From the NCBI RefSeq assembly GCF_003074135.1, contig NZ_PPDK01000001.1, forward strand, positions 186,001-250,000: a stretch of DNA of 64,000 nt, given 5' to 3'. Within the stretch, counting starts at the first letter, position 1, and each line of letters opens with the position of its first letter. This stretch comes from Euzebya tangerina. Its GTDB lineage: Bacteria; Actinomycetota; Nitriliruptoria; Euzebyales; Euzebyaceae. Positions 6,573 through 16,450 of this stretch are shown piece after piece. Under the pieces are notes generated by a model that was not told the DNA's origin, made no database searches, and worked only from the letters and a program-made list of their open reading frames with translations. Made by a program: the position numbers and the translations under genes.

Positions 6573-7211
6573 TTAGCAGGCGGCTGCCTGGGAGAGCAGC
6601 GCATCGCTCACGACCAATGAGCCACCAAGTGCGACCACCTCGGTCGGGTCGAGGCGGGTGATCTCCGCACAGGTCTCGGCCGGAAGGTCACCCGAGCTGG
6701 GGACCAGCAGGATCGGGCCGTCGGTCAGCACGCCACCGGCCAGCGCGTCAGCGAAGCCGTCGCCGTTGGCCAGGTAGACGGTCGCCGCCGTGCTGAACTG
6801 CGACTGCGAGATCACGATGGAGGTAAGGATCCGGTTCTCGCCGGCCAACCGCGACGCGTTGCGGGTCGGGACGCCGTCGTCATCGTTGTCGGGAACACCG
6901 TCATCGTCATCGCCGGCACCGTCATCATCATCGCCAGCACCATCGTCGTCATCGTTGTCGGGAACACCGTCATCGTCATCACCGGCACCGTCATCATCAT
7001 CGCCAGCACCATCGTCGTCATCGTTGTCGGGAACACCGTCATCGTCATCACCGGCACCGTCATCATCATCGCCAGCACCATCGTCGTCATCGGTCTGGGC
7101 GGCTGCAGGGGTCGAGTCTGCGAGAGTCGCGATGAGCGCCCCCGTCAGAGCGAGAGCGGAGAGCAGGGCAAGCATCCGTACAACCGATGCAAGTCTCAGT
7201 GAACTGATCAT
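6573..7211 (-). CDS. Secreted protein: Asp-rich tandem repeats plus a single CWB2 cell-wall-binding repeat
   Basis: ATG 7211 follows AGAGGAG. Residues 1-39 form a signal peptide ending around PAAAQT. Residues 40-113 are almost only Asp, Gly, Ala, Val, Pro and Asn: blocks of four Asp followed by Gly, built on a 23-residue unit repeated three times. The pattern recalls calcium-binding thrombospondin-3-type repeats. Residues 117-212 match one CWB2 unit (RLAGENRI, a YLANGDGFADALAGG core and a VALGGSLVVSDAL tail). CWB2 proteins usually carry three such units, so this is a minimal version. It is transcribed divergently from the carboxylase-family gene at 7460. Calcium binding and surface location are inferred. 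Confidence 0.8.
   Translation of the reverse strand: MISSLRLASVVRMLALLSALALTGALIATLADSTPAAAQTDDDDGAGDDDDGAGDDDDGVPDNDDDDGAGDDDDGAGDDDDGVPDNDDDDGAGDDDDGAGDDDDGVPDNDDDGVPTRNASRLAGENRILTSIVISQSQFSTAATVYLANGDGFADALAGGVLTDGPILLVPSSGDLPAETCAEITRLDPTEVVALGGSLVVSDALLSQAAAC
6888..7092 (-). repeat. Three 69-bp in-frame tandem repeats encoding Asp-rich sequence
   Basis: Units start at 6888, 6957 and 7026; the third is slightly truncated at its end. Copies differ at very few bases (for example GCC versus ACC near base 26 of the unit). Each encodes 23 residues: two blocks of DDDDGAG and one of DDDDGVPDN. Near identity suggests recent expansion and easy copy-number change. Confidence 0.9.
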
Positions 7212-7282
7212 GTCGGACTCCTCTGTCTGTTGAACTCGGGACGGCGCGACCGTACGCCCGATTCCGCCTCCGACAAGGAGAA

Positions 7283-7316
7283 TGAGGAAACTCTCACCTC
7301 CATGAGAAACCTCTCA
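7283..7316. promoter_or_regulatory. Pair of TGAGA-N4-TCTCA-type palindromes, 20 bp apart
   Basis: Site 1 is TGAGGAAACTCTCA (7283-7296) and site 2 is TGAGAAACCTCTCA (7303-7316). Both have five-base arms and a four-base spacer, and their centres are 20 bp apart, two turns of the helix. They sit between the start of the Asp-repeat gene (7211, minus) and the carboxylase-family gene (7460, plus), where an operator for either or both would be expected. The regulator is unknown. Confidence 0.6.
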
Positions 7317-7365
7317 TGTCGGCGCAAAGAAGATAGGCCCACTCGCGTCGAGCCGGGGACCGCCA

Positions 7366-7379
7366 TTAGAAGGTTCTCA
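7366..7379. promoter_or_regulatory. Third palindrome of the TGAGA-N4-TCTCA family
   Basis: TTAGAAGGTTCTCA has one mismatch to the arm consensus. It lies 63 bp from site 2 and 83 bp from site 1, close to whole numbers of helical turns, in the same divergent intergenic region. Confidence 0.45.
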
Positions 7380-7459
7380 GATAGGTTGCTCCGCGCCGAG
7401 GGGTGCAGTACCACAAGACCTGTGAGCCTCACCGTGGTGTACCGAAGCAGGCCGAGTCC

Positions 7460-8881
7460 GTGATCACACGCACTCGTCGCAGGCTCACAACACCCGTTGA
7501 CGGGGCCAGCCTCGCCGTCCTCCGGATCGTCTTCGGCCTCGTGGTCGTGTGGGAGACCTACCGATACTTCTCCTACGACTGGATCGGCAACTTCTGGGTC
7601 GACCGGGCCTACACGTTCACCTATCCCGGCTTCGGGTGGGTGGCGCCACTGCCGGGCGACGCGATGTACGTGGTCTGGGCGGCGATTGGCCTCACCGGTC
7701 TCTGCATCGCCCTCGGCGTCTTCTACCGGGTCGCGACGGTCGTGTTCACGCTCCTCTTCGCCTACTCGTTCCTGCTCGACCACACCCTCTACCTGAATCA
7801 CTTCTACCTGATGGTCCTCGTCGGGGGCATCCTGGCCGTCGTCCCGGCCCACCGGGTCTGGTCGGTCGACGCGCGCCTTGCCGCACGTCCGGAGACGACG
7901 GTGCCGACTTGGGCGCTGTGGCTTCTCCGCTTCCAGATCGCGGTGATGTACGTGGGCGGGGGCATCGCCAAGCTCTCCTCGGACTGGCTGGCCGGCAGGC
8001 CGCTGGATTCGTGGCTGATGGCCGGCGAGAACTGGCCGTTGATCGGCGAGTGGCTGGTTCGCCCGGAAGCGGCGTTGGTGCTCTCTTGGTCAGGATTGCT
8101 GTTGGATCTGCTGGTCGTCCCGCTGGTGCTGTGGCGACCGACCCGCGCACCCGCCCTCATCGCCGTCGGAGCGTTTCACCTGATCAACGCGCGCCTGTTC
8201 TCCATCGGCGTCTTCCCCGTCCTCGCCATGGGCGCGACGCTGGTGCTGTTGCCTCCTGACTGGCCACGACGGGCACTAGCCCGCGTGCGCACCGCGTTCG
8301 GTCGGGACGAGGTCAGCCGCAGCGCAGGGACGGTCACGTCGGAGCCCTCTCCCTCTGGAGGCGAACCTCGCCGCCAGGCTCCGACACCGAGGGCACTGCT
8401 GTCGGTTCCCGCGCTGCTGTTGCTGGTGGTCTTCGTGGCGGCCCAGACCCTGGTCCCTCTGCGGCACCTGGCCATCCCCGGGGACCCCAACTGGACCGAA
8501 GAGGGCCACGACTTCGCCTGGCACATGAAGCTTCGCTCCAAGAGCGGCCATGTCGACTTCGTCGTGTCCGACCGGGAGACCGGGGAGATCTGGGTTCCCG
8601 ATCTGGAGCAGGAACTGGCGTCGTGGCAGATCAGCCGCATGGCGGCGCGCCCGAGGTTGATCCTGCAGTACGCGGGCGAACTCGGCCGTCAAGCGACCGA
8701 GGTCCGCGGCTTTGCCGACCCTGAGGTGGTTGCCCACTCCGCGGTGTCCCTGAACGGCAGGCCTCACGCACCGCTGGTCAGCAGCCGCGTCGACCTCCTC
8801 ACCGTGGACGACGTCTCGATGATCATCGAGCCTCACCCCGACGAACGTCCTGCGCCCGAAGACGAGGCTCGAGGCGGCTAG
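7460..8881 (+). CDS. Vitamin K-dependent gamma-carboxylase family membrane protein (HTTM domain)
   Basis: GTG 7460 is taken as start; the frame is open back to a GTG at 7403. The N-terminal two thirds form a multi-helix HTTM domain and the last third (about residues 330-473) a soluble domain. Several stretches align by eye with animal gamma-glutamyl carboxylase: FLLDHT, LNHFYL, HRVWSVD, GIAKLSSDW, LFSIGVF and NWTEEGHDFAWHMKLR. His114 and Lys171 fall at the places of the human His160 and the catalytic base Lys218, with almost the same spacing. Known family members use reduced vitamin K quinone, O2 and CO2 to turn Glu into gamma-carboxyglutamate; actinobacteria have menaquinone. Whether this protein carboxylates anything is not known. 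It is divergent from the Asp-repeat protein. Confidence 0.85.
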   Translation: MITRTRRRLTTPVDGASLAVLRIVFGLVVVWETYRYFSYDWIGNFWVDRAYTFTYPGFGWVAPLPGDAMYVVWAAIGLTGLCIALGVFYRVATVVFTLLFAYSFLLDHTLYLNHFYLMVLVGGILAVVPAHRVWSVDARLAARPETTVPTWALWLLRFQIAVMYVGGGIAKLSSDWLAGRPLDSWLMAGENWPLIGEWLVRPEAALVLSWSGLLLDLLVVPLVLWRPTRAPALIAVGAFHLINARLFSIGVFPVLAMGATLVLLPPDWPRRALARVRTAFGRDEVSRSAGTVTSEPSPSGGEPRRQAPTPRALLSVPALLLLVVFVAAQTLVPLRHLAIPGDPNWTEEGHDFAWHMKLRSKSGHVDFVVSDRETGEIWVPDLEQELASWQISRMAARPRLILQYAGELGRQATEVRGFADPEVVAHSAVSLNGRPHAPLVSSRVDLLTVDDVSMIIEPHPDERPAPEDEARGG

Positions 8882-8942: not shown

Positions 8943-10208
8943 ATGAACGGCTCCCAACGACACAGCACCCATCCGCGCGGCAACGCCGGCCCCCCACGGT
9001 TCATGCTGTACTCCCACGACGGGATGGGGCTGGGCCACATCCGCCGCAACCTCAATCTGGCTTCAGCGCTGATCGCAGCCGAGCCGACGTCCTCCGTGCT
9101 CCTGGCAACCGGTGCCGAAGACCTGGACGCCTTCACCATCCCGGATGGCGTCGACGTCGTACGGTTCCCGGGCCTTCGGAAGGCAGGCGGCGGTTACCAG
9201 CCCCGCCGGCTTCAACTGGCGGCGACCGAGGTGCACGCCCTCCGGGCAGAGCTGCTGCGTTCCACCGTCGCAAGCTTCGCCCCGGACGTCCTCGTCGCCG
9301 ACCGGCACCCCGGCGGTGTCAGCAGAGAGCTGGTCCCGGCCCTCGAACTCCAGCGAGCGGCTGGACGCCGGACGGTCCTCGGCCTCCGCGACGTGTTGGA
9401 CTCGCCAGACCGCGTGGACCAGGAGTGGGTCCATGGCACTGCCAGACAGGATGTCGAGCGGTTCATCGACCAGGTGCTCATCTACGGCAACGACGGTCTG
9501 CTGGACCCGTTCCACGGCTCGGCGGTCTCGTCGGGCATGCGGGCGCTCGGCACCTACTGCGGCTACGTCGTCGACACCACACCGACCGCCCACGATGAGA
9601 CGTTGAGCGGTCCGCGCCCCGTGGTCCTGACGACGAGCGGCGGAGGCGAGGACGGCCAGCAGGTGCTGAACGCCGCCCTGGACGCCGGGGCACTCGCCCC
9701 CTGGCGAACCGTCATCGTGTCCGGACCCCACATGGATCCGGGGGCCCGAGAGCGACTGGCCGCCCGGGCACTGCTGATTGGCGCCGAGTTCCACACCAGC
9801 ATCACGGACCTCGGACGGCATCTCGGGCAGGTCGACGCCGTGGTGTGCATGGGCGGGTACAACACCGTGACTGAAGTCCTCGCCGCAGGCGTTCCGGCCG
9901 TCTGCATCCCTCGTGTCGTACCCCGACGGGAGCAGCTCATCCGTGCTGGCCGCCTCGCCGACCACGGCCTGCTCCAGTGCATCCACCCGGGCCAGGTCAC
10001 CCCCAGCAGACTTCGGACAGCCATCGGCAGGGCGCTCCAGTGGGACCGTTCGACCCTACGCGCACGCATCGCTGAGCACATGACCTTCGACGGTGCCGGC
10101 CGCGCCGCCGCGTTGCTGGTGACCCTTGCCCGTACCGGGATGGCTCCGGCTCGGCCCCTCGCTTCACCCCCAGATCCGCGAATCACCCCCACGGAGGTAC
10201 CAGCATGA
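8943..10208 (+). CDS. GT-B glycosyltransferase of the COG4671/MurG-like type
   Basis: The 421-residue protein opens its catalytic fold with DGMGLGHIRRNLNLA (residues 27-41), the glycine-rich loop of MurG/UGT-like GT-B enzymes, and has a C-terminal donor-binding half with TTSGGGEDG and VVCMGGYNTVTEVLAAGVP (around 300-320), the usual nucleotide-sugar site. It is cytosolic with no membrane helix. It is first in an operon: its stop overlaps the next start by four bases. A role in making a glycan or glycolipid that the downstream exporter moves is inferred from context; neither sugar donor nor acceptor can be read. Confidence 0.8.
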   Translation: MNGSQRHSTHPRGNAGPPRFMLYSHDGMGLGHIRRNLNLASALIAAEPTSSVLLATGAEDLDAFTIPDGVDVVRFPGLRKAGGGYQPRRLQLAATEVHALRAELLRSTVASFAPDVLVADRHPGGVSRELVPALELQRAAGRRTVLGLRDVLDSPDRVDQEWVHGTARQDVERFIDQVLIYGNDGLLDPFHGSAVSSGMRALGTYCGYVVDTTPTAHDETLSGPRPVVLTTSGGGEDGQQVLNAALDAGALAPWRTVIVSGPHMDPGARERLAARALLIGAEFHTSITDLGRHLGQVDAVVCMGGYNTVTEVLAAGVPAVCIPRVVPRREQLIRAGRLADHGLLQCIHPGQVTPSRLRTAIGRALQWDRSTLRARIAEHMTFDGAGRAAALLVTLARTGMAPARPLASPPDPRITPTEVPA

Positions 10209-11485
10209 CCACCGAGCAGCCCCACATCGCCTACTTGCTCAAGCGCTTCCCGCGCATCTCCGAGACGTTCGTCGCGGCCGAGCTGATCGAGCTTCGCCGA
10301 CAAGGCGCCCGGGTCAGCGTGTACGCGCTGGCCAAGCCAGAGGAGGCGTTCACCCACGACTTCATCGACGACCTCGACGTCGACGTGACCTACCTGACCC
10401 GCCGTCCGCTGCAGCAGCCACTGCGAACCGTACGCGGGACCCAGGAGCTGCTGCGCACACAGCCCCGCGCGACGGTCATCGCAGCCGGTAAGGCCACCCT
10501 GCCGCCCAGCGTCACGGGCTGGCGCCGTCTGGGACAGGCCGCCCAGCTGGCGCGCGCCCTCCGTCGGGATGGCGTCGACCATGTGCACGCCCACTTCGCC
10601 TCATCCGCCGCCAAGCTCGCGCACCTGACCTGGCAGCTCGGTGGCCCGAGTTACAGCGTGACCGCCCACGCCAAGGACATCTACCACCAGGATGTCGACC
10701 CCCGTCGGCTGGTCGAGGTGCTCGGCCAGGCCGCCTTCGTGGCCACCGTCAGCCGAGACAACGTCGAGTACCTGCGGGGCCTCCTGGGGTCGGATGCACG
10801 GGTCACGCTCGTTCCGAACTCCGTCGACCTGGCCCGCCTGGGAACGCCTGCGCGCACGCCAGAGCCCGCACTGGTCCTCGCCGTCGCACGACTGGTCGAG
10901 AAGAAGGGACTGGACGACCTGGTCGCCGCCTGCGGCCTGTTGCAGGACAGCGGCCAGCCGGTTGCGTTAGAGATCATCGGGCACGGCCCGCTCCGTGAGG
11001 ACCTCGCGCATGCCGCGAGGAGACTTGGCGTGGCTGTCACCTTTCGTGGCGCCCTCGACAACGCGGAGGTCATGGAGCGGATGGCTCATGCCACGGTGTT
11101 CGCGTTGCCGTGTGTGGTGGCGAGCACCGGTGATCGGGACGGCCTCCCAACGGTCGTCCTGGAAGCGATGGCGGCTGCCGTGCCCGTGATCACGACCGAT
11201 GTCAACGGTCTGTCCGAGGCGGTCCTGCACGGCCGCACCGGCTGGCAGGTGCCCCAGCGCGACCCGGCTGCTCTCGCCTCGGCGATCAGGACGATCGTGG
11301 GGGACCCCCCCTTGGCAGCTCGACTGGGAGCTGCCGGCAGGGACCACGTCGAGGCCAACTTCTGCCTCCGCGACAGCGTCGCGTTGCTGCGGTCCGCGTT
11401 CTCCGAGGCCACCGGCACCGGCGGCGTCCGATCACATCGCGACCGTGCACTGGTGGGCTCGTCAGCGCCGGTGGTCGGCCCATGA
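10205..11485 (+). CDS. Family 4 glycosyltransferase
   Basis: A 426-residue GT-B enzyme. The N-terminal half begins IAYLLKRFPRISETF, typical of GT4 proteins of the exopolysaccharide type. The C-terminal half has the donor site ARLVEKKGLDDLV, EIIGHGPLREDL, and DGLPTVVLEAMAAAVPV with the EX7E-type glutamate and the GLSEAV loop. ATG 10205 overlaps the previous stop by ATGA and its own end overlaps the next gene by four bases, so translation is coupled. Cytosolic. Second of three glycosyltransferases in a row. Confidence 0.85.
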   Translation: MTTEQPHIAYLLKRFPRISETFVAAELIELRRQGARVSVYALAKPEEAFTHDFIDDLDVDVTYLTRRPLQQPLRTVRGTQELLRTQPRATVIAAGKATLPPSVTGWRRLGQAAQLARALRRDGVDHVHAHFASSAAKLAHLTWQLGGPSYSVTAHAKDIYHQDVDPRRLVEVLGQAAFVATVSRDNVEYLRGLLGSDARVTLVPNSVDLARLGTPARTPEPALVLAVARLVEKKGLDDLVAACGLLQDSGQPVALEIIGHGPLREDLAHAARRLGVAVTFRGALDNAEVMERMAHATVFALPCVVASTGDRDGLPTVVLEAMAAAVPVITTDVNGLSEAVLHGRTGWQVPQRDPAALASAIRTIVGDPPLAARLGAAGRDHVEANFCLRDSVALLRSAFSEATGTGGVRSHRDRALVGSSAPVVGP

Positions 11486-12621
11486 GTGCGCTGCTGATGG
11501 CCTGCCTGGACCCGGGGATCGCGTGGGGTGGGTCGAAGGGCGCGTCGGTGCACCTGGAGCAACTGGCCCGCGCGATCGCCGCCGAGGACACCCAGGTCTG
11601 CGTCTGCGTCACCCGAATCGCCGATGGGGCGCAGACGAGGGCCCACAACCTGGAGGTCCTGGAGATTCCGGGTCCGCAGCAGGGGGCCGACCTCGCCACC
11701 CGCCTGGACTGCGAAGGCGACCGTGCCGCGTGGCTGGCCGAGACGGCACAGGCACGCGGCGTGTCCGCCATCTATGAACGTCTGGCGCTGCACACGACCG
11801 CGGCCAGCCGGGCCGCCCGACACCTCGGCCTGCCCCATCTGGTCGAGATGAACGCGCCGCTGCGGGAGGAGGCATCCCGCTTCCGGACCCTTGAGCGACC
11901 TGAGGTCGCCGACCGTGCCGAGCAGGAGGTCCTGCGCCACGCAGCGCTGGTCCTCCCCGTATCCGAACCACTCGTGACGTACGCCCGCAGTCGTGGCGCC
12001 ACCGCGGTCGAGCTCACACCCAACGCCGTGAACGCGGCCATGTTCCCCCGCGCGGCACGACCGGACAGGGCGGACCCGACGGCGATCTTCGTCGGTGCCC
12101 TACGACCGTGGCACGGGCCGGAGGTCCTCGCCGAGGCCTGGCGGAGCCTGGGCGCAGATGCCCCCCGGTTGGTCGTCGTCGGGGACGGCCCCGGCCGCCA
12201 TCATCTCCAGTCGGTCGGGGCAGAGCTCCTCGGCACGGTGCCGCACGACGACGTGCCGGAGCTGCTCCGTCAGGCCGACCTGGCCGTGGCACCGGGCCCG
12301 GCCGACATGCCGACGTACTTCTCACCACTGAAGGTGTTCGAGTACATGGCCGCCGGCCTGCCCGTCGTCGCCAGCGACCTGCCCGGCACACGTCAGGTGC
12401 TGTCCGAACGGGGCGTGCTCGTACCAGCCGGTGACGCCAGCGCGCTCGCGGCAGCCGTTGCCGCCCTGCAGGCGGATCCCGATCGTCGTGCTCAGCTCGG
12501 GGCCGCGGGTCGCCGGGAGGTGCTCAGCAACCACACCTGGCCGCACCGGGCGCGGACCGTGCTGGCTCACGTGGACGGTCTGGCGGCCACACCCACCGCC
12601 TCCGTGGAGCTGTCGGCATGA
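11482..12621 (+). CDS. Family 4 glycosyltransferase
   Basis: The 379-residue protein has a GT4 fold: an N-terminal SKGASVHLEQLARAI loop for the acceptor half and, in the donor half, FVGALRPWHGPEVLAEAW, VVGDGPGR and KVFEYMAAGLPVVASDLPG (around 280-300) with the conserved Glu. No membrane segment or signal. It overlaps both neighbours by four bases. The three glycosyltransferases are of different subtypes, so the product probably contains at least three sequential glycosidic bonds; this is inference. Confidence 0.85.
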   Translation: MSALLMACLDPGIAWGGSKGASVHLEQLARAIAAEDTQVCVCVTRIADGAQTRAHNLEVLEIPGPQQGADLATRLDCEGDRAAWLAETAQARGVSAIYERLALHTTAASRAARHLGLPHLVEMNAPLREEASRFRTLERPEVADRAEQEVLRHAALVLPVSEPLVTYARSRGATAVELTPNAVNAAMFPRAARPDRADPTAIFVGALRPWHGPEVLAEAWRSLGADAPRLVVVGDGPGRHHLQSVGAELLGTVPHDDVPELLRQADLAVAPGPADMPTYFSPLKVFEYMAAGLPVVASDLPGTRQVLSERGVLVPAGDASALAAAVAALQADPDRRAQLGAAGRREVLSNHTWPHRARTVLAHVDGLAATPTASVELSA

Positions 12622-15539
12622 GCGCCGTGCTGCGACTCCTGTGGCCCTTCACCCGCGGACGGCGAGTTGCTGTCGCGAGTGGCGTCGTCGGGACGTTGCT
12701 CGTGATCGCCGCCGAGCTGGCCCGCCCGTTCCCACTCAAGCTGGTCGTCGACTACCTCGCAGGCTCGCCCGAGCAGGTCGATGGGGCACTGGTGTCGACC
12801 GCTGCCGGCCTGATGCTCGCAGTCGCCGCGACCGGTGCGCTCGGGACCTATGCCTCGGAGACGTGGATGCGCCAGACGGCAGAGCACGTCGTCCACGACC
12901 TCCGCGTCGCCGTCTACCGCCATCTCCAGCGGCTGTCCCTGCGCTACCACAGCGGCCGGTCGACCGGGGACCTGGTGGCCCGGATCACCGGTGATGCCAA
13001 CGCCGTCGGAGAGTTGGTGAGCGAGTCGATCGTCAAGGTCCTCGGCTCCGTGCTGCTGCTGGTCGGCATGGTGACCGTCAGCCTGCTGCTCGATCCGATC
13101 CTGACCCTGGTGGCGGTGGCGATCACGCCCATCCTGGCCGTCGCGAGCGTCCGGTCACGCCGGATCATCAAGCGGCAGGCGCGACAGCAACGCCGAGCCG
13201 AAGGGGAGATCGCAGCAATGAGCACCGAGGCGCTGGGGGCGATCGCCACGGTGAAGTCACTGGGGACCGAACATGCGGAGACTTCTCGTCTCGACTCCGA
13301 GAGCCGTGCCCGGCGGGACGCCGGCGTGCGAGGCTCGGTCGTGGAGGGGCGCTTCGGTGGCCTGGTCGGCGTGCTCGAGGCCGTCGGCACCGGAACCGTT
13401 CTCGCCATCGGCGTCATCCGCGTGGTCTCCGGAGCACTGAGTCCCGGTGACCTGGTCGTGATGGTCTCCTACGTCAAGCGCCTCTACCGCCCGCTGCGAG
13501 ACCTGGCCCGCCAGGCCGGCCGGATCAGCAGGGCCCTGGCCAGGGCCGAGCGGATCAGCGAGGTCCTGGCGGCCGACGACGAGTTGACCGACCCGCCACG
13601 GGGCCATGAGGGCCCGCGGGCCGCGGGTGCGATCGCGTTGGAGGGCGTCAGCTTCGCCTACCCCGGCCGGGCACCCACCCTCCACGACGTGACCTTCGAC
13701 GCACCCGCCGGGTCCACGGTCGCTGTCGTGGGAACCTCCGGGGCCGGCAAGTCCACCCTGGCCGCCCTTCTTGCCCGCTTCCACGACCCCTCTGAGGGGA
13801 TCGTCCGGCTGGACGGCCGCGACGTCCGGGACTGCCGACTCTCGTGGGTGCGTGAGCAGATCGGCTTCGTGCTCCAGGACAGCGAGCTCTTTCGCGGGAG
13901 CGTCGCTGACAACATTGCCTACGGGACCGAGGCCACCCGGGGCGAGGTCATCGCGGCCGCTCGCGCAGCCGGGGCCGACGAGTTCGTCACGGCCCTGCCC
14001 GCGGGGTATGACACCCCGCTCGGCCCCGGAGGTGCCGGACTCTCCGGCGGGCAGCGCCAACGCCTGGCCATCGCGCGCACGCTGCTGCGGGACCCGGCGA
14101 TCGTGATCCTGGACGAGCCGACCAGTGGCCTCGATGCCGACAGCGAACACGATGTGATCGCCGCGCTCGAACACCTGCTCGAGGGTCGGACCACGGTGAT
14201 GATCACCCACTCCATGCGGTTGGCAGCCCGTGCCGACCGCGTGATCGTCCTGGAGCAGGGCCGGGTCGTCGAGGACGGCCAGCCGGGCCGCCTGCTGGCC
14301 CAGTGCGGTCGGTTCCGCGAGCTGGCGGTCGCCCAGGAGGTCGTCACGCCGCAGGCCGTTCCTGCGCCGCGCGACGAGCGGCTGGGCCAACTCGACCTGC
14401 TGCTCGACCCGGAGGCCGTGGCCGAGCGTCTGCGGGCCGTGACACCGGACGTCCGCCAGGTGCGGATCCGCTACGTCAGGTACAAGCCGGGCACCAATGT
14501 GGTGGTGGACTACGACGTGACCGGCCGGGGTCGCGACCGGCGGGTGGTTCTCATGGCCGCCGCAGATCGTGACCTGGCCAAGCGCGCGGCACGGCCCGAG
14601 AACCGTCAGCTCGCCAACCGCGTGGCGGAACGAGCCGGTGTCGACCAGCCGCTGATGCACCTGCCCGATGACGACGTGTTGGTGCAGTGGGTACCGCTGG
14701 ACCTCTGGTTGCCGGCCTTGGCGCTGCCCCTGCGGGAGCTTGCCACACGCCTGGACCTCCCCACCCCGGACGTGGCCGACGATCCAGTTGAGATCCTGGC
14801 TTACAAGCCGCGCAGACGTGCCGTGCTGCGCCGTGGCGATGTCGTCTTCAAGCTCTACGCCGATCAGGGCGACTTCCGCAACGCGGCGAGGGCGCTGCTC
14901 GCCAGTCCGCTGCTACCGGTTCCCGTGGCCCCACCAGTGGGGCTCAACAACGACCTCCGGATCACGGCTCAACGGGTTGTCCCGGGACACCGGCTGGATG
15001 ACCCATGGCCACACCTGGAACAGGTCGGGCGGACGCTGGCCAGAGTGCACCGAGCGACTGTGCGGACCACCGCTCGCCGACTGGACCCGCTGGCCGGCGC
15101 GCGGGCCAGCGCCCGCACGGTCGGTGCCCTCGTGCCCGAACTGGCTGACCGGGCCATCCGGCTGTCGGACCGGCTCGCGGCCAGTGAGCCGACGGGACCG
15201 GGGGCGTGGTGCCACGGCGACTTCCACCGGGGCCAGGTGCTCCTGGGTCCCTCGGGACTGACGGTGCTCGACACCGACGAGAGCGGGATCGGCGATCCGG
15301 CAATGGACCTGGCGACGTTCGCGGCCCATCTGCATCGTGGTCAGGAGGGCCTGGAGCGAACCCACGCGGCGTTGGACGGGTTGGTGTCGGGTTACGGGCG
15401 CCGACCCGCTGGTCTGGACTGGCACCTCGCCGTGGCGCTGCTCCGTCGCAGCATGTCTCCCTTCCGCAGCAACCCGACGCCGGACTGGCCTGACCGCGTC
15501 GCAGTCATGCTGAAGGTCGCGGAGGAGACTGCACCGTGA
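12618..15539 (+). CDS. ABC exporter half-transporter fused to an aminoglycoside-phosphotransferase-like kinase domain
   Basis: A 973-residue fusion. Residues 1-310 are a six-helix ABC exporter membrane domain. Residues 340-570 are the ATPase: Walker A GTSGAGKST (about 372-380), Q-loop VLQD, signature LSGGQRQR (about 474), Walker B IVILDEP (about 494) and the switch His in ITHS (about 528). A normal half-exporter would end near residue 590. The extra 380 residues form an APH/choline-kinase-like domain: catalytic HGDFHRGQ (about 863) and DTDESGIGDPAMDLA (about 883). The catalytic loop has Gln where most kinases have Asn. It overlaps its neighbours by four bases. Probably dimerises to export a substrate that is phosphorylated at the inner face; substrate unknown. 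Confidence 0.85.
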   Translation: MSAVLRLLWPFTRGRRVAVASGVVGTLLVIAAELARPFPLKLVVDYLAGSPEQVDGALVSTAAGLMLAVAATGALGTYASETWMRQTAEHVVHDLRVAVYRHLQRLSLRYHSGRSTGDLVARITGDANAVGELVSESIVKVLGSVLLLVGMVTVSLLLDPILTLVAVAITPILAVASVRSRRIIKRQARQQRRAEGEIAAMSTEALGAIATVKSLGTEHAETSRLDSESRARRDAGVRGSVVEGRFGGLVGVLEAVGTGTVLAIGVIRVVSGALSPGDLVVMVSYVKRLYRPLRDLARQAGRISRALARAERISEVLAADDELTDPPRGHEGPRAAGAIALEGVSFAYPGRAPTLHDVTFDAPAGSTVAVVGTSGAGKSTLAALLARFHDPSEGIVRLDGRDVRDCRLSWVREQIGFVLQDSELFRGSVADNIAYGTEATRGEVIAAARAAGADEFVTALPAGYDTPLGPGGAGLSGGQRQRLAIARTLLRDPAIVILDEPTSGLDADSEHDVIAALEHLLEGRTTVMITHSMRLAARADRVIVLEQGRVVEDGQPGRLLAQCGRFRELAVAQEVVTPQAVPAPRDERLGQLDLLLDPEAVAERLRAVTPDVRQVRIRYVRYKPGTNVVVDYDVTGRGRDRRVVLMAAADRDLAKRAARPENRQLANRVAERAGVDQPLMHLPDDDVLVQWVPLDLWLPALALPLRELATRLDLPTPDVADDPVEILAYKPRRRAVLRRGDVVFKLYADQGDFRNAARALLASPLLPVPVAPPVGLNNDLRITAQRVVPGHRLDDPWPHLEQVGRTLARVHRATVRTTARRLDPLAGARASARTVGALVPELADRAIRLSDRLAASEPTGPGAWCHGDFHRGQVLLGPSGLTVLDTDESGIGDPAMDLATFAAHLHRGQEGLERTHAALDGLVSGYGRRPAGLDWHLAVALLRRSMSPFRSNPTPDWPDRVAVMLKVAEETAP

Positions 15540-16450
15540 CGGTCGTGCCACCGAGCGCGCCGACCAGCGCGACACCGCTGGCCGTTCCGTCCGTGGCGGA
15601 CGTGGAGCGCGTGGCTGCCGCCCTCCTGGGCGGGCCGGTGTGGACCGAGGTGCTCAAGGACAAGCCGGGTCGGCGTCGAACCGCACGGGTGCACGGCCAG
15701 GCCGGCAGCGTCATCGCCAAGGCCTATGCCGGTGACCGCGCCGCCCGGGTCGCAAAGAGGGTTGGTGTCCTGGCCGACGGTCCGGACCGTCCGGTGGTGC
15801 CGCAGCTTCGCGCAGTGGATGCCGATCTCGGCGTCGTCCTCCTCGACGACGTGGTCGGGGCGCCGCTGAGCACCTCGTTGGAGGCGGGCGACGTGGCAGC
15901 GGTTCGCCGGGCCGCCCAGGCGCTTGCGGGCTGGCACACGGCGTGGGCAGGACGGGTCGTGGCACTGCAGCCGCACACCGTTGAGCGAGAGCGACGGGCC
16001 CTGCAGCGGCAGGCCGAGCTGGCGCCGACGACGTTGGGCGCGGCGGCGTTGCGTGCTGCCGAGCCCGGCCTCCAGACGCCGTGGCCCGCCCCCACGGTGG
16101 TCCATCGCGATCTCTACGAGGAGCAGATCCTGACCGGTGAGACCACGGCGCTGATCGACCTCGACGACATCGCGCTCGGACCGCCGGAGCTCGACGTGGG
16201 CAACGCACTGGGCCACCTCCTCCTCCGCGATACTCGCGGCGGATCGACGGCGGTCAGCGAGGCCACGGGAGCCTTCCTGCACGGCTACGGACTCAGCGGA
16301 CGCCTCGACCCCGAGCGACTGGCGCGGTGCACCCGCCTGACCCTGTGCCGCCTTGCGTGCGTGCACCGTGCTCCCGACCTACTGGACCTGGCGCGGACGG
16401 TGACGCCGGCGGCGATCAGTCAGTGGCGCGATCTCGGGCGAGGCGCGTAG
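15536..16450 (+). CDS. Aminoglycoside phosphotransferase-family kinase
   Basis: GTG 15536 overlaps the preceding stop by GTGA. The 304-residue soluble protein has the APH fold: a short N-lobe with SVIAKAY as candidate ATP-binding Lys strand, the catalytic loop VHRDLYEEQIL (about residue 190) and the metal-binding segment LIDLDDIALGPPELDVGN (about 205-222). As in the C-terminal domain of the preceding fusion, Gln takes the place of the usual Asn in the catalytic loop, so the two kinase-like units are related. It is the last gene of the glycosyltransferase-exporter operon; a small-molecule or sugar kinase for the exported glycan is a reasonable guess. Confidence 0.75.
   Translation: MTVVPPSAPTSATPLAVPSVADVERVAAALLGGPVWTEVLKDKPGRRRTARVHGQAGSVIAKAYAGDRAARVAKRVGVLADGPDRPVVPQLRAVDADLGVVLLDDVVGAPLSTSLEAGDVAAVRRAAQALAGWHTAWAGRVVALQPHTVERERRALQRQAELAPTTLGAAALRAAEPGLQTPWPAPTVVHRDLYEEQILTGETTALIDLDDIALGPPELDVGNALGHLLLRDTRGGSTAVSEATGAFLHGYGLSGRLDPERLARCTRLTLCRLACVHRAPDLLDLARTVTPAAISQWRDLGRGA

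Follow-up and report, generated by a model that had tools for sequence, protein, structure and literature searches.

The substrates of human GGCX, a vitamin K-dependent gamma-glutamyl carboxylase (VKGC), carry a propeptide and a Glu-rich domain, the Gla (gamma-carboxyglutamate) domain; the animal carboxylase also acts slowly on Asp peptides. Bacterial homologues of GGCX have been known for years, to our knowledge without a known substrate. Here we analyze such a homologue, encoded in a stretch of 64,000 nucleotides from Euzebya tangerina (contig NZ_PPDK01000001.1, positions 186,001 to 250,000; this whole stretch is hereafter the window, and coordinates count from its first letter). Unlike the human substrates, the protein encoded next to this VKGC carries Asp clusters. 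The combination of a VKGC and an Asp-rich, putatively secreted neighbour is a recurrent genomic association, which is strongly supported, and we lean towards the view that the window encodes an enzyme–substrate pair, in which the VKGC would carboxylate the Asp clusters of its neighbour to beta-carboxyaspartate. The features discussed below are the following.

6573–7211, minus strand: putatively secreted Asp-repeat CWB2 protein, 212 residues, the proposed substrate (sequence and Pfam)
6600–6851, minus strand: its single CWB2 cell-wall-binding domain, residues 121–204 (PF04122, E = 8.6e-14)
6867–7094, minus strand: its Asp-repeat tract, (DDDDGAGDDDDGVPDNDDDDGAG)n, residues 40–115 (42 Asp, 0 Glu and 0 Lys or Arg out of 76 residues)
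7212–7459, no strand: divergent intergenic region between the CWB2 gene and the VKGC gene
7460–8881, plus strand: VKGC/GGCX-family membrane enzyme, 473 residues (Pfam, phmmer to human GGCX, and an AlphaFold2 (AF2) model compared with GGCX structures)
7493–8263, plus strand: HTTM transmembrane domain of the enzyme, residues 12–268 (Pfam, E = 3.8e-80)
7796–7801, plus strand: Asn113-His114, aligned with human Asn159-His160 of the carboxylate side-chain pocket (human role from PMC12589487)
7970–7972, plus strand: Lys171, aligned with human Lys218, the hydroquinone-deprotonating base (human role from PMC12589487)
8414–8809, plus strand: lumenal (extracytoplasmic) domain, residues 319–450 (Pfam VKGC_lumenal_dom, E = 1e-33)
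8507–8536, plus strand: linker motif HDFAWHMKLR, His350 to Arg359, aligned with human 395–404 and typical of VKGCs with poly-Asp neighbours

The VKGC open reading frame (ORF) at 7460–8881 is real. It starts at the GTG at 7460 (a GTG at 7403 is a possible alternative start), and the HTTM domain followed by the lumenal domain, both matched with E-values far past the Pfam cut-off, span the full length of the enzyme. With phmmer, residues 8–447 align with residues 54 to 489 of the human GGCX chains (E~6e-48; the chain numbering is offset by 31). The C-terminus thus falls near human residue 489, where the alignment stops: the C-terminal ~270 residues of the human protein are absent, and with them the C-terminal part of the propeptide-binding region, which is a feature of the animal enzyme and not of the Pfam family. 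An AF2 model built from a 20-sequence alignment of homologues had a mean predicted local distance difference test score (pLDDT) of 89.8 and a predicted template modelling score (pTM) of 0.88. When this model was compared with the Protein Data Bank by Foldseek, all 16 significant matches were GGCX (best E = 3e-23), and the model superposes on human GGCX (PF05090 plus PF22777) with a TM-score of ~0.8 by query length. The window VKGC is therefore a full-length member of the GGCX family, with a modelled GGCX fold, and the assignment made in a preliminary description of the sequence is borne out.

The catalytic residues were compared in an alignment of 62 bacterial VKGC proteins with the human enzyme. 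The human enzyme uses Lys218 as the base towards vitamin K hydroquinone and keeps the side chain of Glu in place with Asn159, His160 and Tyr395 (PMC12589487). Lys218, His160, Asn159, Trp223, Phe286, Phe299 and Trp399 are invariant across the 62 bacterial proteins and human GGCX. The window enzyme shares with the human one the catalytic and quinone-pocket residues, i.e. Lys218, His160, Asn159, Trp223 (Trp176), Phe286 (Phe239), Phe299 (Phe252) and Met401 (Met356). The correspondence of His114 with His160 and of Lys171 with Lys218, proposed in the preliminary description, is exact, and the catalytic Lys, whose loss from close homologues had been named there as a point against the proposal, is kept in 62 of 62 proteins. 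The window enzyme differs from human GGCX at the position of Tyr395, occupied by His350, and at that of Lys217, which is Ala in the window VKGC and Ala, Ser or Asn in every bacterial row; it also lacks the human Cys99–Cys450 disulfide, as do the other bacterial rows.

These residues bear on the chemistry of the enzyme. A VKGC could be tied to poly-Asp proteins without carboxylating Asp, for instance as a menaquinol epoxidase only or by introducing another change, the acidic tract acting as a docking or Ca2+-sequestering partner. The absence of the human propeptide-binding C-terminal region and the replacement of Lys217 in all bacterial homologues agree with such an explanation, and the genomic association is itself silent on chemistry. 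However, Asn159 and His160, which contact the target carboxylate in human GGCX (PMC12589487), are invariant in every homologue, and a pure epoxidase would have no obvious need for them. We consider this explanation unlikely.

As a protein, the Asp-repeat product of 6573–7211 is more than chance. Its N-terminus is hydrophobic and signal-peptide-like, with an Ala-rich cleavage-like site (as read by eye from the sequence), and the DNA of its Asp tract consists of 3.2 copies of a 69-bp unit (23 residues) with 99% matches. The protein resembles CWB2 proteins in its CWB2 domain and signal-peptide-like N-terminus; it differs from them in combining a single domain with an Asp-repeat tract, CWB2 proteins usually having several copies of the domain. 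The preliminary description of this neighbour as Asp-rich is upheld by these features, and its N-terminus is suggestive of secretion. The Glu-rich domain of Gla proteins is absent, the Asp tract containing no Glu, and no propeptide is evident by eye in the 212 residues, no propeptide-motif search having been made. No sigma-70-like promoter was found in the intergenic region.

The neighbour might nevertheless be a bystander in a CWB2- and Asp-rich genome, with the VKGC carboxylating Glu or a substrate encoded elsewhere. The genome contains at least 163 CWB2 domains, so that proximity to a CWB2 gene alone is weak evidence, and we rejected it as evidence of pairing. In a genome of 4.8 Mb this number represents an extreme expansion, common to congeners. 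Pattern searches, on which our count of Asp-rich proteins rests, found about five CWB2 genes rich in Asp and several further genes with Asp runs in the 4.78-Mb genome, which is clearly permissive for Asp-rich proteins. Yet both full-length VKGCs of the genome (a further HTTM protein has no lumenal domain) are paired with Asp-repeat proteins. The second VKGC (L008:8523-9953) is 53% identical to the window VKGC, and the gene for a CWB2 protein with a long DDDxGx array (DDDAGF/DDDSGL repeats) lies in the same orientation 41 bp downstream of it. Since in that protein the repeat follows the CWB2 domain instead of preceding it, and since its repeat unit is unlike that of the window protein, the second pair is no plain duplicate of the first. 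That two of about five Asp-rich CWB2 genes adjoin the only two VKGCs of the genome is unlikely to be due to chance.

We also examined VKGC loci in other genomes. PF22777 was present in 3 of 101 relatives (E. tangerina itself included), and in 11 of 396 genomes of its phylum; for the phylum to which a Planctomycetota metagenome-assembled genome belongs, the figure was 39 of 392. The survey covered 50 VKGC loci outside the E. tangerina genome, de-duplicated so that near copies counted as one, with up to 20 kb taken around each; the controls were 233 one-kilobase shells located 2–9 kb from the VKGC. A hit was an in-frame Asp run within 1 kb, and frequencies were compared by a binomial test. Asp runs of at least four residues were found at 11 of the 50 loci versus 9 of the 233 shells (p=4e-6), and runs of at least five residues at 6 loci versus 1 shell (p=9e-7). 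Note that one of the 11 hits, L094, is in an ORF with a non-coding-looking base composition; it was still counted in the test. When homopolymer runs of 18 amino acids were tested, only Asp was strongly enriched near VKGC genes: Glu runs were not (1/50 loci versus 5/233 shells, p=0.7). The Ca-loop motif DxDxDG was mildly enriched (11/50 versus 19/233, p=0.002).

The genomic link between VKGC and poly-Asp is thus strong. That it is significant outside the E. tangerina genome and specific for Asp over Glu, together with the lack of Glu in the window tract, argues against the neighbour being a bystander, an explanation to which we give slightly less weight than to the epoxidase one, even though the pair is not kept in same-class relatives. 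The pairing of VKGC with poly-Asp proteins is not described in the open-access literature that we searched, a search to which subscription papers and preprints were external.

The partner proteins at the other loci are unrelated scaffolds. Four of them (at L075, L081, L082 and L088) are lipoproteins, each with a Cys-bounded Asp cluster and a signal that resembles a lipobox; they are encoded by genes that overlap or abut the VKGC start, and have in common a C-terminal domain of ~130 residues without a Pfam match; by eye, this domain resembles pro-domains of the FTP/PepSY type. Three others (L092, L093 and L096) are secreted SDDDDSGG/(SGK)n proteins. Further partners are a secreted Cys-Pro peptide of 60 residues, the last eight of which are Asp (L084), two lipoproteins ending in DDDDD (L102) and DDDLDDLEDDD (L114), and FG-GAP proteins with Asp clusters (L026/L124 and L110). 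At L038, an ORF of 74 residues that is rich in Asp and Arg (L038:2182-2406) lies 111 bp upstream of the VKGC; it has a strong ribosome-binding site and contains two Asp runs, and with its leader-like first half and Asp/Arg-rich second half, it looks like the precursor of a ribosomally synthesized and post-translationally modified peptide. An out-of-sample case, external to the 50 loci, was found among annotated plasmids: on the Paracoccus albus (Pseudomonadota) plasmid NZ_CP115776, the VKGC gene PAF20_RS16775 is followed by a DUF393 gene and then, two genes from the VKGC, by PAF20_RS16765, whose secreted, EF-hand-like product has four clusters of the form RDDDDD. (The DUF393 thiol oxidoreductase was considered as a general VKGC partner and rejected: it is nearby at 3 loci only.) The association thus recurs across three phyla, and the partners are built on different scaffolds. 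That the scaffolds vary and the Asp runs persist is as expected if the VKGC sees the Asp run.

When the presence of a poly-Asp partner was mapped onto the VKGC tree, the label required 7 changes, at least 3 of them forced by well-supported branches, which indicates that the pairing has several independent instances but is also clustered. A linker signature, HxFxWHMKLR (His at human positions 395 and 400, a basic residue at 402), is associated with poly-Asp partners, significantly so by Fisher test. As a marker of poly-Asp pairing it was nevertheless rejected and is only suggestive, because it is inseparable from shared descent, with 4 independent pairs on well-supported branches.

Several observations weigh against the proposed carboxylation of Asp by the VKGC. 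At about three quarters of the loci surveyed, no poly-Asp protein adjoins the VKGC; two same-class relatives (G039 and G036) have a VKGC and no acidic neighbour, and a Bernardetia plasmid and two Persicobacter plasmids have a VKGC without a poly-Asp partner. Conversely, one congener that has no VKGC encodes a CWB2 protein with a run of eight Asp (L019), and E. tangerina itself has, away from its VKGCs, genes for about three more CWB2 proteins rich in Asp and for several further poly-Asp proteins. Other VKGC clades keep other partners, read by eye as imelysin/di-heme oxidoreductase-like or FG-GAP proteins. A Leptospira homologue, which like the window enzyme is a bacterial relative of GGCX, reportedly has an altered activity that suggests a role other than protein carboxylation, a point shared with the epoxidase explanation; the association with Asp could explain why this homologue may not serve to carboxylate Glu. 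Finally, VKOR (PF07884) was not found in the 98% complete E. tangerina genome, in which positive controls matched, so that epoxide recycling is unexplained; de novo menaquinone synthesis could take its place.

The gene order downstream of the VKGC also has to be weighed. Its stop codon lies only 62 bp before the next co-directional gene, which encodes a glycosyltransferase, and the co-directional genes that follow (8943–16450) encode, besides glycosyltransferases, two APH-like kinases, one of which is a domain fused to an ABC exporter. The VKGC could belong to this island and modify, or help make, its surface polysaccharide or peptide. The first glycosyltransferase is absent from congeners and from a family relative, and VKGC is absent from the congeners examined, so that both may have arrived together; direct synteny in congeners was ruled out as a comparison, since they have neither gene. 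However, no island-type genes recur beside the second VKGC or at the other VKGC loci inspected, and Asp runs do. We regard membership of the island as very improbable.

As to the pairing put forward in the preliminary description, its recurrence is strongly supported by the second pair in the same genome, by many loci of a second phylum and by the Paracoccus plasmid. The narrower form, in which relatives would keep a VKGC next to an acidic CWB2 gene, does not hold: the congeners examined have no VKGC, the two same-class VKGCs are unpaired, and partners elsewhere are not CWB2 proteins.

Other VKGC loci have features of their own. A supported clade (L039, L040, L041, L074, L079 and L113; Shimodaira–Hasegawa-like approximate likelihood ratio test (SH-aLRT) 98) adjoins imelysin- and di-heme oxidoreductase-like genes, which suggests a second, different role for VKGCs with a lumenal domain. 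At L035:10229-13740 and L037:10098-13528, downstream of the VKGC, tandem arrays encode secreted, Gly-rich paralogues in which Asp/Glu recur at regular intervals, and the secreted protein encoded upstream has GPDC/GGxCGG repeats and an LPRTG motif; these proteins are possible VKGC substrates of another type. Among the VKGCs of 740–780 residues, those of L120, L121 and L122 have an insertion that splits the lumenal domain, and those of L078 and L116 an N-terminal extension. Phages yielded no VKGC homologue, and viral contigs two loci of little use.

We infer three elements of the enzyme–substrate pair: the neighbour as substrate, beta-carboxyaspartate as product, and Ca2+ binding. In the mechanism that we propose, the VKGC would use menaquinol, O2 and CO2. 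Lys171 would deprotonate the quinol, whose oxygenation would produce a strong base; this base would take the beta proton from an Asp held by Asn113 and His114, and CO2 would add to the deprotonated Asp to give beta-carboxyaspartate, the Asp analogue of Gla. The DDDD clusters of the CWB2 protein would thereby be turned into dense binding sites for Ca2+ on the surface of the cell. The association with Asp and not with Glu fits this idea. The window protein would then resemble Gla proteins such as factor IX and matrix Gla protein as a secreted acidic protein whose proposed Ca2+-binding dicarboxylates are made by a membrane carboxylase during export, and would differ from them in its Asp runs without Glu and in its CWB2 anchor, replaced by lipoprotein anchors at other loci.

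On a wider scale, we see an even chance that a branch of the VKGCs, in at least Actinomycetota, Planctomycetota and Pseudomonadota, beta-carboxylates the Asp clusters of secreted, cell-wall and lipoprotein partners, which would be bacterial counterparts of the Gla proteins. If so, Asp runs encoded next door would constitute a specific substrate class and would explain the purpose of bacterial GGCX homologues. Bacteria would possess a vitamin K-dependent modification, and carboxylase chemistry would extend to a second amino acid. Such pairs would also offer simple bacterial systems in which to study GGCX catalysis, and a source of short Ca2+-binding tags that can be genetically encoded.
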